A stretch of 64,000 bases of DNA from Tibeticola sediminis (lineage in GTDB: Bacteria; Pseudomonadota; Gammaproteobacteria; Burkholderiales; Burkholderiaceae_C): NCBI RefSeq assembly GCF_003843835.1, contig NZ_RKQL01000003.1:230681-294680 (forward strand). The letters run 5' to 3'. The translations under genes were made by a program, and so were the position numbers. Below the pieces are notes generated by a model. It searched no databases. It had not been told where the DNA came from and saw only the letters and a program-made list of their open reading frames with translations. Below, in pieces: positions 12,837 through 49,635 of the stretch; within the stretch, counting starts at the first letter, position 1, and each line of letters begins with the position of its first letter.

Positions 12837-12997
12837 GGCAACGCTGAACAAGTCCCTCGCGCGCCGCGCATCCCAGCCGCGGGCGGTCTGCGTCGTTGCA
12901 AATCCTCGCCATAGCTGCGGCTATGGCTGCGGTTTGCGCCTCGCATCCCATCCCGCGGCCGGGCGCGCGCCATCGCGGGAACTTATTCAGCGTTGCC
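12837..12997 (+). mobile_element. family A palindromic element, copy A1 (161 bp)
   Basis: Starts GGCAACGCTGAACAAGTCCC and ends with the inverted GGAACTTATTCAGCGTTGCC. Internally the two arms are imperfect inverted copies meeting at the hairpin CCATAG-CTGCGG-CTATGG, so one strand could fold into a single long hairpin. It has no coding capacity. CTAA flanks both sides, with one extra A on the left, and the left CTAA includes the TAA stop of the hybrid kinase. Three more full-length copies of identical size lie in this window. Ends and target size resemble the IS5 group, so this is best read as a non-autonomous (MITE-like) element. Confidence 0.85.
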
Positions 12998-16436: not shown

Positions 16437-16597
16437 GGCAACGCTGAACAAGTCCCTCGCGCGTCGCGCATCCCGGCTGCGGGCGGTCTGCTTCGTTGCA
16501 AATCCTCGCCATAGCTGCGGCTATGGCTGCGGTTTGCGCCTCGCATCCCATCCCGCAGCCGGGCGCGCGCCATCGCGGGAACTTATTCAGCGTTGCC
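16437..16597 (+). mobile_element. family A palindromic element, copy A2 (161 bp)
   Basis: Same 161-bp length, ends and central CCATAG-CTGCGG-CTATGG hairpin as copy A1. Perfect 4-bp flanking duplication TTTA (16433-16436 and 16598-16601). The right-hand TTTA contains the complement of the TAA stop of ruvB, so the element begins exactly where the ruvB reading frame ends. Confidence 0.87.
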
Positions 16598-16598
16598 T

Positions 16599-17657
16599 TT
16601 ACTCAGAAAAAAGGCCGCCACTGGCCTTCGGTGGCGCCACGCCCAGGTGGCGGTATGCGGCCAGCGTGGCACAGCGGCCGCGTGGGGTGCGCTGCAAAAA
16701 GCCCTGCTGGATCAGGTAGGGCTCGATCACGTCTTCGATGGTGCCGGCCTCTTCGCCGATGCTCGCGGCGATGTTGTCCAGGCCCACCGGGCCGCCGTCG
16801 AAGCGGTGGATGACGGCCTCGAGCAGCTTGCGGTCCATGAGGTCGAAGCCCTCGGGGTCGACATCGAGCATGGCCAGCGCGGCCTGCGCGATCGGCTGCG
16901 TGATGCGGCCCTGGCCCTTGACTTCGGCATAGTCCCGCACCCGGCGCAACAGCCGGTTGGCGATGCGCGGCGTGCCGCGGCTGCGGCGCGCGATCTCGAA
17001 GCCGCCGGCCTCGTCGAGCGGCGTCTTGAGCAGGCCCGCGCTGCGCGTGACGATGCGCGCGAGTTCCTCGGGGCTGTAGAACTCCAGCCGCGCGACGATG
17101 CCGAAGCGGTCGCGCAGCGGGTTGGTGAGCATGCCCGCGCGGGTGGTGGCGCCCACCAGGGTGAAGGGCTGGAGTTCGAGCTTGATGGACCGCGCTGCGG
17201 GACCCTCGCCGATCATGATGTCGATCTGGTAGTCCTCCAGCGCGGGGTAGAGGATTTCCTCGACCACGGGCGAGAGCCGGTGGATCTCGTCGATGAAGAG
17301 CACGTCGTTCTTCTCGAGGTTGGTGAGGATGGCGGCCAGGTCCTTGGGCTTTTCCAGCACCGGGCCGCTGGTCTGGCGCAGGTTCACGCCGAGCTCGGCC
17401 GCGACGATGTGCGAGAGCGTGGTCTTGCCCAGCCCCGGCGGGCCGAACAACAGTACATGGTCGAGCGCTTCGCCGCGCTTCCTCGCCGCGCCGATGAAGA
17501 TTTCCAACTGCTCGCGCACCTTGGCCTGGCCCACGTATTCGTCGAGCAGCTTGGGCCGCAACGCGCGCTCGATCGCCTCCTCCTGCGGCGAAGCCGGCGC
17601 GGCGGAGACCACGCGCCGCTCAGGCAAGGGGCCGAAATCGTCGGTAATGATGGCCAT
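16599..17657 (-). CDS. ruvB: Holliday junction branch migration ATPase RuvB
   Basis: The 352-residue AAA+ motor of the RuvABC resolvasome. Walker A is [10 protein letters not shown], Walker B DEIHRLS, sensor I VGATTRAG, and sensor [19 protein letters not shown]; the winged-helix C-terminus follows. Length is normal. Its partner ruvA lies upstream on the same strand but is separated by the 228-bp family B element instead of the usual few bases. ATG at 17657. The 3' end abuts family A copy A2. Confidence 0.97.
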
Positions 17658-17705
17658 GACGGAATATCCCGGAACGCTACGAAAACCCGAACGCGGTGCA
17701 CTCAG

Positions 17706-17933
17706 CCTAAATCCGGCAGTTGGGCGCGCCCGGGCGGGTCGTCATCGGGCGCGCGGGCAAGGCGCAAACCACAGCCATGGCGTGGCGAGGATTTGCAACG
17801 CCGCCCCCGCGCCCGAGGGCGACTCGAACGGGTGCGCAGCGCTCACCCAAACGGTGAACGGCCTGCGCACCGAAAATTGTTGAAACATCAACACCTTGCA
17901 TTCAGCGAAAAGCGGTCAACTGCCGGATTTAGG
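17706..17933 (+). mobile_element. family B palindromic element, copy B1 (228 bp), between ruvA and ruvB
   Basis: Perfect 17-bp inverted ends: CCTAAATCCGGCAGTTG on the left and its exact complement on the right. Perfect 5-bp flanking duplication CTCAG (17701-17705 and 17934-17938). The right CTCAG contains the complement of the ruvA TGA stop. The interior includes CAAACCACAGCCAT and GGCGAGGATTTGCAACG, the same core as the centre of family A. It also has a small inverted repeat around TGTTGAAACATCAACA. No ORF of substance is present, so it is probably non-autonomous. It lengthens the ruvA-ruvB gap to 277 bp and may affect coupling. Confidence 0.85.
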
Positions 17934-17934
17934 C

Positions 17935-18507
17935 TCAGCGTGCCAGCGCCTTGAGTGCGAGTTTGATGCCTTCGCTCACGCCCACGTCGGGCGGCAGCGC
18001 CTGCACCGCAGCGGCCGCTTCCTTGTCGTTGTAGCCCAGCGCGCGCAGCGCCTGCTCGATGTCGGCCTGCGCGTCGCTGCTGGCGCTGCGCGGGCTGGAG
18101 AGCTCCGCGCCGAGTTTGCCTTTGAGCTCGAGCAGCAGCCGCTCGGCGGTTTTTTTGCCGATGCCCGGCACCTTCACCAGCCGGCCCGCCTCTTGCGCGG
18201 TGATGGCCTGCGCGAGTTCGGCCACCGACAGCCCCGAGAGCACCGCCAGCGCCGTGCGCGGCCCCACGCCGCTGATCTTGATGAGTTGGCGGAACGCCTC
18301 GCGCTCGGCCGCGGTGCCAAAACCGTAGAGCAGCTGCGCATCTTCACGCACCACGAAATGGGTGAGCAGCACCACCGGCTGCCCTACGGCGGGCAGGTGG
18401 TAAAACGTGCTCATCGGCACCGAGAGCTCGTAGCCGACGCCGTGGCAGTCGACAAGAATCTCGGGTGGGTTTTTCTGGGCGAGCGTGCCGCTCAACTGTC
18501 CGATCAT
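17935..18507 (-). CDS. ruvA: Holliday junction DNA-binding protein RuvA
   Basis: A 190-residue junction-recognition subunit. The N-terminal OB domain starts [20 protein letters not shown]. The double helix-hairpin-helix region shows [18 protein letters not shown] and [20 protein letters not shown]. The C-terminal domain III, which contacts RuvB, ends LALKALAR. Its TGA stop is part of the family B target duplication. The 5' end overlaps the spacer in front of the divergent phoH gene. Confidence 0.97.
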
Positions 18508-31815: not shown

Positions 31816-31976
31816 GGCAACGCTGAATAAGTCCCCGTGATGGCGCGCGCCCGGCCGCGGGATGGGATGCGAGGCGCAAACCACAGCCATAGCCGCAGCT
31901 ATGGCGAGGATTTGCAACGACGCAGACCGCCCGCAGCCGGGATGCGCGACGCGCGAGGGACTTGTTCAGCGTTGCC
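31816..31976 (-). mobile_element. family A palindromic element, copy A3 (161 bp)
   Basis: Same 161-bp length, inserted in the opposite orientation to the other three full copies, with the right end GGGACTTGTTCAGCGTTGCC. Perfect 4-bp flanking duplication CAAA (31812-31815 and 31977-31980). It sits between convergent paaE and metY, next to a shared bidirectional terminator. Confidence 0.87.
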
Positions 31977-35085: not shown

Positions 35086-36525
35086 TCAATAGCGGTAGCT
35101 GTCGGCCTTGTAGGGGCCTTGACGGGGCACGCCGATGTACGCGGCTTGCGCGTCGGTCAGTTCGGTCAGCTTCGCGCCGACCTTCTTGAGGTGCAGGCGG
35201 GCCACTTTCTCGTCGAGGTGCTTGGGCAGCACGTAGACCTTGCCGGGCTCGTAGCGCTCGGGGTGGGTGTAGAGCTCGACCTGCGCGATGGTCTGGTTGG
35301 CAAACGAGCTCGACATCACGAAGCTCGGGTGGCCGGTGGCGCAGCCGAGGTTCACGAGCCGCCCCTTGGCCAGCAGGATGATGCGCTTGCCATCGGGGAA
35401 CACCACATGGTCGACCTGGGGCTTGATCTCCTCAAAGCGGCAATTCGCCTCGAGCGCGGCGACGTCGATTTCATTGTCGAAGTGACCGATGTTGCACACG
35501 ATGGCCTGGTCTTTCATGGCCGCCATGTGCGCGTAGGTGATGACGTCGCGGTTGCCGGTGGCGGTGACGAAGATGTCGGCCTTGTCGGCCGCCTCGTCCA
35601 TGGTGACGACGCGATAGCCTTCCATCGCCGCTTGCAGCGCGCAAATCGGGTCGATCTCGGTCACCCACACCTGCGCCGAGAGCGCACGCAGCGCCTGCGC
35701 GCTGCCCTTGCCCACGTCGCCGTAGCCGCACACCACGGCGATCTTGCCGGCGATCATCACGTCGGTCGCGCGTTTGATGCCGTCGACGAGCGACTCGCGG
35801 CAGCCGTAGAGGTTGTCGAACTTGCTCTTGGTCACTGAATCGTTGACGTTGATCGCGCGGAACAGCAGCGTGCCTTGGGCCGACATTTCCTTGAGGCGAT
35901 GCACGCCCGTGGTCGTCTCCTCGGTCACGCCGATGATCTGCGCGCTCTTGCGGCTGTACCAGGTCGGGTCCTGCGCGAGCTTGGCGCGGATCGCAGCGTA
36001 GAGGCAGCGCTCTTCCTCGCTCTGCGGGTTCGCAATGACGGACGGGTCGGTCTCGGCGCGGCGACCCAGGTGCATGAGCAGCGTGGCGTCGCCGCCGTCG
36101 TCGAGGATCATGTTCGGGCCTTCGTCGGGCGCTCCGGCCGGGCCGAACTCGAAGATGCGGTGGGTGTAGTCCCAGTAGTCGGCCAGGCTCTCGCCTTTGA
36201 TCGCGAACACCGGCGTGCCGGCGGCGGCAATCGCGGCGGCCGCATGGTCCTGCGTCGAGAAGATGTTGCACGAGGCCCAGCGCACCCGTGCGCCGAGTGC
36301 CTGCAGCGTCTCGATCAGCACCGCCGTCTGGATGGTCATGTGCAGGCTGCCGGTGATGCGCGCGCCCTTGAGCGGCTGCGATGCGGCCAGTTCCTCACGG
36401 ATGGCCATGAGGCCGGGCATCTCGGTCTCGGCGATGCGGATTTCTTTGCGGCCCCAGTCAGCCAGGCCCATGTCGGCAATGGCGCGATCGGCTGCTGTGT
36501 TGGGGGTGGGGATGCGTGCGTTCAT
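35086..36525 (-). CDS. ahcY: adenosylhomocysteinase (SAH hydrolase)
   Basis: A 479-residue NAD-dependent enzyme splitting SAH into adenosine and homocysteine. Conserved parts are [16 protein letters not shown], the NAD-binding [28 protein letters not shown] and the C-terminal [10 protein letters not shown]. The long form with the internal insert typical of proteobacteria is present. First gene of ahcY-tlyA-metF-metY and directly preceded by an SAH riboswitch. Confidence 0.97.
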
Positions 36526-36579
36526 GAGGGGCTCCAAAACAACAAAGAGTGGAACCGCCGCACACCGGGAGGGGGACGA

Positions 36580-36672
36580 ACTCACCCCAGTTGCAGCGGG
36601 TGAGCGTCGTTGTGTTTCTGTTCCGAGCCTCACGCCCCACCATCGGCAGGGGCGCTGCAACGCTCCTCGGAA
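36580..36672 (-). ncRNA. SAH riboswitch upstream of ahcY
   Basis: On the minus strand the leader reads CCGAGGAGCGTTGCAGCG, then AGGCTCGG closing the first helix, then GACGCTCACCCGCTGCAAC and GGGGTGAG. This is the conserved SAH-aptamer order, with GAGGAGCG(T)TGCA and GCTCACC...GGGTGAG. The GGGTGAG strand ends 55 nt before the ahcY ATG. These riboswitches are known to switch expression on when SAH accumulates, which fits control of ahcY and probably the genes behind it. Confidence 0.9.
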
Positions 36673-36725
36673 GCGCCGGATTTTACGCGAACAGACTCGG
36701 GCCCGCGCGCGAGGGAGTTGTTCAA

Positions 36726-36960
36726 CCTAAATCCGGCAGTTGGGCGCGCCTGGGCGGGTCGTCATCGGGTGCGCGGGCAAGGCGCAAACCACAGCCATGG
36801 CGGGTGCCATGGCGAGGATTTGCAACGCCGCCCCCGCGCCCGAGGGCGACTCGAACGGGCGCACAGCGCTCGCCCAAAAGGTGTAGGGCCTGCGCACTGA
36901 AAATTGCTGAAACATCAACACATTGCTTTTCGCGAGTAGCGGTCAACTGCCGGATTTAGG
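36726..36960 (+). mobile_element. family B palindromic element, copy B2 (235 bp)
   Basis: Same perfect 17-bp inverted ends as B1, with a perfect 5-bp flanking duplication TTCAA (36721-36725 and 36961-36965). The right TTCAA contains the complement of the glpK TGA stop. The central core has an extra short palindrome (GCCATGGCGGGTGCCATGGC) relative to B1, explaining the 7-bp length difference. The 436-bp gap between glpK and ahcY holds only this element and the SAH riboswitch. Confidence 0.85.
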
Positions 36961-44344: not shown

Positions 44345-44401
44345 GGCGACGCGGTATCCGCTCCCGCGAGGGCGCGCGCGAGGGACTTGTTCAGCGTTGC
44401 C
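44345..44401 (-). mobile_element. family A short form, copy A8 (57 bp)
   Basis: On the plus strand the right end is GGGACTTGTTCAGCGTTGCC and the left end GGCGACGCGGTATCCGCTCC. It matches the short copy at 47081 in reverse. Flanking TTGA and TCGA differ by one base. It is directly followed by a family B end fragment, giving a composite. Confidence 0.55.
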
Positions 44402-44404
44402 TCG

Positions 44405-44447
44405 ACACCTTGCTTTTCGCGAGCAGCGGTCAACTGCAGGATTTAGG
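44405..44447 (+). mobile_element. family B right-end fragment (B3)
   Basis: The last ~43 bp match the right end of B1/B2 (ACACCTTGCTTTTCGCGAG, then AGCGGTCAACTGC and GGATTTAGG) with one change in the inverted end. It is followed by CTCAG at 44448-44452, which contains the complement of the TGA stop of the exonuclease gene, as in B1. The left half is missing. Confidence 0.7.
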
Positions 44448-47080: not shown

Positions 47081-47139
47081 GGCAACGCTGAACCAGTTCC
47101 TCGCGCGCCGCGCATCGCCGGAACGGATTCAGCGTTGCC
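47081..47139 (+). mobile_element. family A short form, copy A5 (59 bp)
   Basis: Ends GGCAACGCTGAACCAGTTCC and GATTCAGCGTTGCC form an inverted pair around CGCGCGCCGCGCATCGCCGG. Same 59-bp length as the copy at 13705. No clear flanking duplication (TTGG / TGAG). It abuts the symporter terminator. Confidence 0.65.
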
Positions 47140-49474: not shown

Positions 49475-49635
49475 GGCAACGCTGAACAAGTCCCTCGCGC
49501 GTCGCGCATCCCGGCTGCGGGCGGTCTGCTTCGTTGCAAATCCTCGCCATAGCTGCGGCTATGGCTGCGGTTTGCGCCTCGCATCCCATCCCGCGGCCGG
49601 GCGCGCGCCATCACGGGAACTTATTCAGCGTTGCC
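49475..49635 (+). mobile_element. family A palindromic element, copy A4 (161 bp)
   Basis: Same 161-bp length, ends and central hairpin as the other copies. Flanks are CTAG (49471-49474) and CCAG (49636-49639), a 4-bp duplication with one mismatch. It lies 17 bp downstream of the uvrA stop, between it and the symporter operon. Confidence 0.85.

Follow-up and report, generated by a model that had tools for sequence, protein, structure and literature searches.

The window, by which we mean the whole stretch of 64,000 nucleotides that was analysed, comes from the draft genome of Tibeticola sediminis (2.73 Mb in 10 contigs). It holds copies of two short repeat families, A and B, which share a hairpin core of about 44 nt with the sequence GCAAACCRCAGCCAT..ATGGCGAGGATTTGCAACG (Table 1). 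Family B copy 1 lies between ruvA and ruvB and separates the two genes. A preliminary description of this DNA had claimed that the centre of family A recurs in both family B elements, and this was borne out: taken with short flanks, the core of B copy 2 shares 85-87% identity with each of the four A copies of the window over 51-55 nt. The core that was first placed at 17755-17805 is indeed present there, but this copy is damaged, as 7 nt have been deleted from helix 2 and the loop. A single long hairpin is predicted for the family A copy on the plus strand (-117.2 kcal/mol, z -12.06).

Table 1. Repeat copies, cores and neighbouring features in the window
Feature	Position	Strand	Remarks
ruvB	16599-17657		
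ruvA	17935-18507		
Interval separating ruvA and ruvB	17658-17934		occupied by B copy 1
Family B MITE copy 1, 228 bp	17706-17933	+	CTCAG duplication at 17701-17705 and 17934-17938
Core in B copy 1, 37 nt	17764-17800	+	59.6 bits; most of the at least 150 matches in the genome score higher
Family B MITE copy 2, 235 bp	36726-36960	+	TTCAA duplication on both sides
Core in B copy 2	36784-36827	+	intact
Family A MITE, 161 bp	31816-31976	+	ends GGCAACGCTGAA..TTCAGCGTTGCC; CAAA on both sides
Core in this family A copy	31876-31919	+	
Family A MITE with core	12837-12997	-	
Family A MITE with core	16437-16597	-	
Family A MITE with core	49475-49635	-	
Family A ends, 59 bp	47081-47139		without core
Chimera of A and B right ends	44372-44447		without core
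Apparent insertion of B copy 2 into an older family A remnant	36705-36730		TTCA target within the A terminus
SAH riboswitch RF01057	36595-36674		62.5 bits
S-adenosylhomocysteine hydrolase gene	35086-36660		riboswitch at its start

Three further stretches of the window carry parts of these families. One has family A ends only, one is a fusion of two right ends, that of family A (..GAGGGACTTGTTCAGCGTTGCC) and that of family B, and one is an older A remnant whose end has seemingly been invaded by B copy 2. This remnant, like B copy 2, sits a short way upstream of the SAH riboswitch.

The core recurs in the genome far above chance. At up to 3 mismatches there are 114 core sites in the whole genome and none for the reversed-pattern control, and a covariance model finds at least 150 matches in the 2.7 Mb at E<=0.01. 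A core match lies within 21 bp of 8 of the 20 contig ends, which indicates that breaks in the draft assembly often coincide with these repeats.

Families A and B are non-autonomous DNA transposons (MITEs). Family A is 161 bp long with the ends GGCAACGCTGAA..TTCAGCGTTGCC, and an exact 4-bp duplication flanks 27 of the 38 listed rows, in which two copies are entered with two alternative ends each; 19 of these 27 duplications read YTAR. Family B is about 235 bp long with the ends CCTAAATCCGGCAGTTG..CAACTGCCGGATTTAGG; of its 43 distinct copies, 32 are flanked by an exact 5-bp duplication, which reads NTSAN in every case. In the window copies, the terminal inverted repeats share 12 bp in A and 17 bp in B. 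The duplications, together with an A element that sits inside a B element elsewhere in the collected loci (L078), suggest that both families have moved in the past.

A candidate source of transposase was found for each family. On contig 7 there is a 1171-bp IS5-family element (L203:1088-2258) with the ends GGCAACGCTGA and TTAA on both sides, and its 320-aa transposase scores 338.1 bits for the IS5 family (cut-off 140). The end of family A and the end of this element can be aligned along some 27 bp, at the cost of a single mismatch and two gaps; the score is 35, and shuffled sequences reach at most 24. Family A thus clearly matches, at its end, an IS5-family element of the same genome, an autonomous partner of the kind by which a MITE is recognised. 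The A interior has no similarity to this element (score 26, shuffled maximum 32). An IS5-family transposase acting in trans probably mobilises family A.

For family B, an element in another genome (L206, genome G107) has CCTAA ends like those of B, a 545-aa open frame and TTCAC, thus the NTSAN form, on both sides. In the T. sediminis genome itself, a second element of 1657 bp (L215), with the ends CCTAAAA..GCAGTT, encodes a 542-aa protein that falls exactly at the IS1380 cut-off (180.0 against 180 bits). By eye, about 18 of 22 positions are alike between the B ends and the IS1380 element, and alignments of the ends do no better than shuffled sequences can (19 on the left, where the shuffled maximum is 23, and 25 on the right, where it is 28). 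Family B is perhaps moved by an IS1380-family transposase.

The core is not a fragment of the two transposase elements examined, since the interiors of A and B match the IS5 and IS1380 elements no better than shuffled sequences do. Searched with the core pattern at up to 5 mismatches, L203, L211 and L206 gave zero matches, and L215 matched only within an adjoining A element. The initial proposal that the design does not fit a simple decayed insertion sequence is supported by the lack of transposase-element similarity in the interiors and of a core in the insertion sequences examined.

In brief, the core has a foot (CAAGGC..AACGCCG), two helices of about 7 bp (helix 1) and about 8 bp (helix 2) with a 3x2 internal loop between them, and a variable loop of 4-5 nt. 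In an alignment of 48 sequences, 98.5% of the cells are paired and 57 have changed on both sides; shuffling the alignment leaves 16.4 such changes, and sliding it at most 8. This set was picked at up to 3 mismatches to the pattern, a selection that works against double changes, and it omits two of 50 non-redundant sequences (L111 and L128) in which one helix 1 pair each is broken; with all 50 included, 98.3% of the cells are paired. RNAalifold predicts 14 of the 15 pairs from the 48 sequences on its own.

A second alignment of 105 rows (103 distinct) covers many lineages. Two-sided changes occur at all 15 modelled helix pairs, so that the pairing is kept by compensatory change in both helices; 95.2% of the cells are paired, and 360 cells are changed on both sides, against 94.9 in shuffled and at most 43 in slid alignments. 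These figures favour the structure, as the rows came from a search of 88 loci that were hand-picked after their folds had been seen, with poor folders left out, and the alignment was fitted to the model structure. For the underlying set of 99 sources, L297, L309 and L367 had been left out of the 80 listed loci, and a further eleven of the 99 were dropped as poor folders (for example L318, L330, L341, L364, L370 and L372) or as near-duplicates (for example L327, L347 and L349).

The foot bases CAAGGC and AACGCCG are nearly invariant in the 105 rows (0.89-1.0 conserved per base). The GGC and GCC of the foot do not covary in the alignment, and their pairing is a candidate only. The internal loop is largely GCA (0.87, 0.83 and 0.74) opposite a purine followed by A (0.91), and a bulged A in helix 1 is not general, as it occurs in about half of the rows. 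Rfam 15 gave no match over the cores in window positions 12001-50000 (E<=1) or at 19 other loci (gathering threshold), and a known structured RNA family was accordingly rejected as the identity of the cores searched.

The variation within the families was counted as departures per site and copy, in copies picked by whole-element similarity: 29 of 30 for A and 25 of 30 for B, from the best 30 of at least 40 in each, the others having been dropped for length or ends. In family A the core is the least variable part (0.0018), followed by the terminal repeats (0.0091) and the arms (0.019-0.035). In family B the core (0.0103) is about as low as the terminal repeats (0.0094), and the arms vary more (0.033-0.068). 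The loop is the most variable part in both families (0.12 in A and 0.28 in B). Compared with the arms, the A core has fewer sites with private changes (2 of 39 against 19 of 75, p=0.0097) and with shared changes (0 of 39 against 8 of 75, p=0.049). For B, the difference holds for shared changes (2 of 39 against 32 of 149, p=0.018), with private changes at 5 of 39 against 40 of 149 sites (p=0.09), and the B core and the B left arm alone do not differ significantly.

According to a simple caller based on codon usage, 73 of 77 distinct copies lie outside predicted genes. Among the 69 copies with both neighbours called, 21 lie between convergent and 8 between divergent genes. The core strand shows no bias relative to transcription in A (10 with, 9 against); in B the counts are 6 with and 15 against, a bias that we do not count as shown. 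Nor is there a bias relative to GC skew in either family.

The core is not confined to a few copies in one genome. A sample of 299 genomes of the family, in 141 genera, was searched at up to 3 mismatches, and the core occurs in 89 of them (53 genera); the reversed-pattern control was 0 in every printed row of this search. Among 398 genomes sampled from the phylum, a model built from the 48-sequence alignment (R1) matched 36. A broader model (R2), whose training rows were drawn partly from the same phylum sample, matched 81, which belong to 22 family codes by our own count; two genomes (G402 and G540) are matched by R1 and not by R2.

A scan of named genomes gave at least 119 stretches, of which 80 are listed, and many of these fold alike. 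R2 was run on 13 genomes behind chosen loci and matches 10 of them: Endozoicomonas acroporae (122 matches), Psychromonas hadalis (36), a Massilia (25), Azotobacter vinelandii (19), Delftia acidovorans (5), and metagenome-assembled genomes (MAGs) of Mariprofundaceae (100), Desulfuromonadales (2), Planctomycetales (17), Bacteroidetes (at least 150) and Desulfovibrionaceae (63). The last of these looks mis-binned by eye, because its elements resemble those of Burkholderiales. R2 has zero matches in the genomes of L297 (Kiritimatiellae), L330 (Opitutales) and L367 (Sphaerisporangium), so the pattern hits in these look like chance. The spread outside Pseudomonadota rests on MAGs.

A 56-nt core query matched 6 of 72,556 plasmid records, one of them in the alphaproteobacterium Martelella mediterranea, and gave no match in phages or E. 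coli genomes. Some single loci may be mentioned here. One core copy in E. acroporae has a molybdenum cofactor riboswitch (RF01055) next to it (L371:5786-6010). L289 is a weak R1 match (32.1 bits) from a genome that R2 does not match, and near it is what we take to be a Neisseria-like uptake sequence. The AT-rich repeat (ATR) MITE of Neisseria may carry a foot similar to that of the core.

In the loci fetched from the family, the core lies centrally in palindromic elements, mostly of about 150-165 bp, with differing termini. Apart from A and B, it occurs in MITEs with about a dozen other terminal types; this number was reached by merging, by eye, 32 computed terminal clusters that include register-shifted duplicates. 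Examples are CTAG|TGCAGTGTT, CTAG|TACTGCAACCCGGAAG, CTAG|TGTCCTGAGTTGG, TCA|GAGGCTGAGAG, TCA|GAACCTGTGAATGAACC, TAA|GATCGTGTTTACGATC and YTAR|GGCRACGCTGAA. Some of the end readings pick up inner palindromes instead, and 9 of the 110 loci yielded no reading. Under strict rules (at least 12 of 16 end positions matching, a duplication, and a length of 120-260 bp), ends could be read in 57 of 110 family loci, 6 of 29 loci from the phylum search with R1 and 21 of the 80 listed named-genome loci. This gave 85 elements from 84 of 219 loci, 74 of them 150-170 bp long; they are selected for having ends, and solo cores could exist elsewhere.

Inner arms and termini combine many-to-many: arm cluster 4 occurs with three terminal clusters (T4, T17 and T21), and terminus T0 occurs with five arm clusters. 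This exchange, like the wide spread of the core and its compensatory changes, supports the early suggestion of a functional cassette common to two terminal systems, or of recombination between elements. Such a cassette may be a hairpin RNA, a protein-binding site or a resolution site. In many types, the core lies about 58-61 bp from one end and 54-57 bp from the other.

Two cores stand head to head, 100-104 bp apart, in 16 of 99 loci at E<=1 and in ten at E<=0.005 (L373, L314, L325, L363, L348, L358, L277, L284, L268 and L295). Where the ends of such double-core loci are readable, the elements measure about 237-259 bp. L369 has two cores on the same strand, 105 bp apart. Family B (235 bp) combines a single core with a second hairpin of another kind, and it may therefore descend from a double-core form.

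We tentatively suggest that the core is a cis signal, recognised by its structure, that serves the elements' own spread with whichever transposase is at hand. A constraint on the core at the level of the terminal repeats, together with ends that belong to different insertion sequences, fits such a signal. The elements would then form a large MITE superfamily that is marked by its central hairpin and not by a transposase. We infer that the hairpin may be recognised, as a folded single strand or as a cruciform, by a factor common to many bacteria, and this recognition would raise the multiplication or survival of the elements. Elements that captured new terminal repeats would have kept the core, and could thus use whichever DDE transposase was present. 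The low private variation of the A core could also reflect selection after insertion, which would point to a function for the host. The 161-bp elements are palindromic throughout, and template switching could keep their stems matched without selection.

An alternative is a function at the RNA level: the hairpin, transcribed from neighbouring genes, would bind a host protein or nuclease, and the insertions would be tolerated or regulatory. The element is very stable as a folded RNA, conserved unpaired bases are expected of an RNA bound by protein, and the placement outside genes, more often between convergent than divergent neighbours, agrees with this. The core strand is nevertheless not oriented with transcription in A and mostly runs against it in B, and the cores searched have no Rfam match; we find this reading rather unlikely. 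We consider it improbable that the elements are one old MITE lineage whose termini have drifted or been swapped, with a functionless core whose stems are matched only through template-switch repair of palindromes. Such a lineage would account for the similar core position across many terminal types, for the long palindromes and for a loop that is the most variable part. Template switching would, however, tend to erase asymmetry, and both the unequal sides of the internal loop and the AAC without a partner at the 3' foot have for the most part persisted across lineages; moreover, the A core varies less than the arms although both are palindromic, and arms and termini combine many-to-many.

The core could also act in duplex form, as the binding site of a topoisomerase or a DNA architectural protein of the host, which would unite the ends of a very short element. 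The elements of about 160 bp with a central core, the full-length insertion sequences examined, which are without it, and its presence with different termini would all agree with such a role, yet a dimer would need neither the asymmetry of the loop nor the free exchange of pairs within one genome, and we judge it very improbable. The least probable reading, in our view, makes the core an independent REP-like element, mobilised by a Y1 transposase (RAYT), that was inserted into several MITEs. A hairpin with conserved unpaired bases, head to head with another at 100-104 bp in 16 of 99 loci, does resemble REPs and REPINs. Against it, the T. sediminis genome has 0 matches to Y1_Tnp (PF01797; the control was positive in 5 of 14 named genomes) in spite of at least 150 core matches, for which reason a RAYT-driven REP was rejected, and in the 85 elements with readable ends, which were chosen for their ends, the core lies inside a small element.

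The preferred reading, a structured cis signal for spread, can be put more broadly. It is possible, if somewhat short of probable, that there is a superfamily of non-autonomous transposons, at least in Pseudomonadota and probably in Bacteroidota and Planctomycetota, whose core is read by a conserved cellular factor and which exploits many unrelated transposases, as a bacterial counterpart to the central domains of SINEs. Bacterial MITEs commonly pass for degenerate copies of individual insertion sequences. If one structured core has been kept under many termini, with probably several transposase families and in more than one phylum, MITEs would carry a common working part, and such a part should have a cellular partner. 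The core model is also a means to annotate many intergenic repeats that are now unlabelled.

A literature search, mainly of open-access papers, gave no account that we recognised of a core shared by bacterial MITEs with different termini. Like REP, BIME and REPIN elements, the core is a hairpin with conserved unpaired bases that occurs in many copies, some of them in head-to-head pairs. The foot tags of REP hairpins are GTAG or CGTC (PMC3733652), whereas the core has CAAGGC and AACGCCG in nearly all of the 105 rows. REPs and REPINs with a RAYT also differ from A and B, which have DDE-type ends and duplications in a genome without a Y1 transposase.

The Correia/NEMIS elements and the ATR MITEs of Neisseria are like A and B in being short, without genes, bounded by terminal inverted repeats and target duplications, and mostly intergenic. 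To our knowledge, bacterial MITEs have been described family by family, each with its mobilising insertion sequence. The superfamily of A and B differs from these in that one structured core is found under many termini, probably of at least two transposase families. The attC sites of integrons act as a folded strand with extrahelical bases and with stems that are partly free in sequence. The core resembles them in these respects, but no attC end-box pattern is visible by eye. In eukaryotes, CORE-SINEs, V-SINEs and other SINEs have a conserved central domain with unrelated heads and tails, and the core elements likewise combine one conserved middle with unrelated ends. SINEs are copied through RNA, whereas the core elements are bacterial DNA elements with a folded core.
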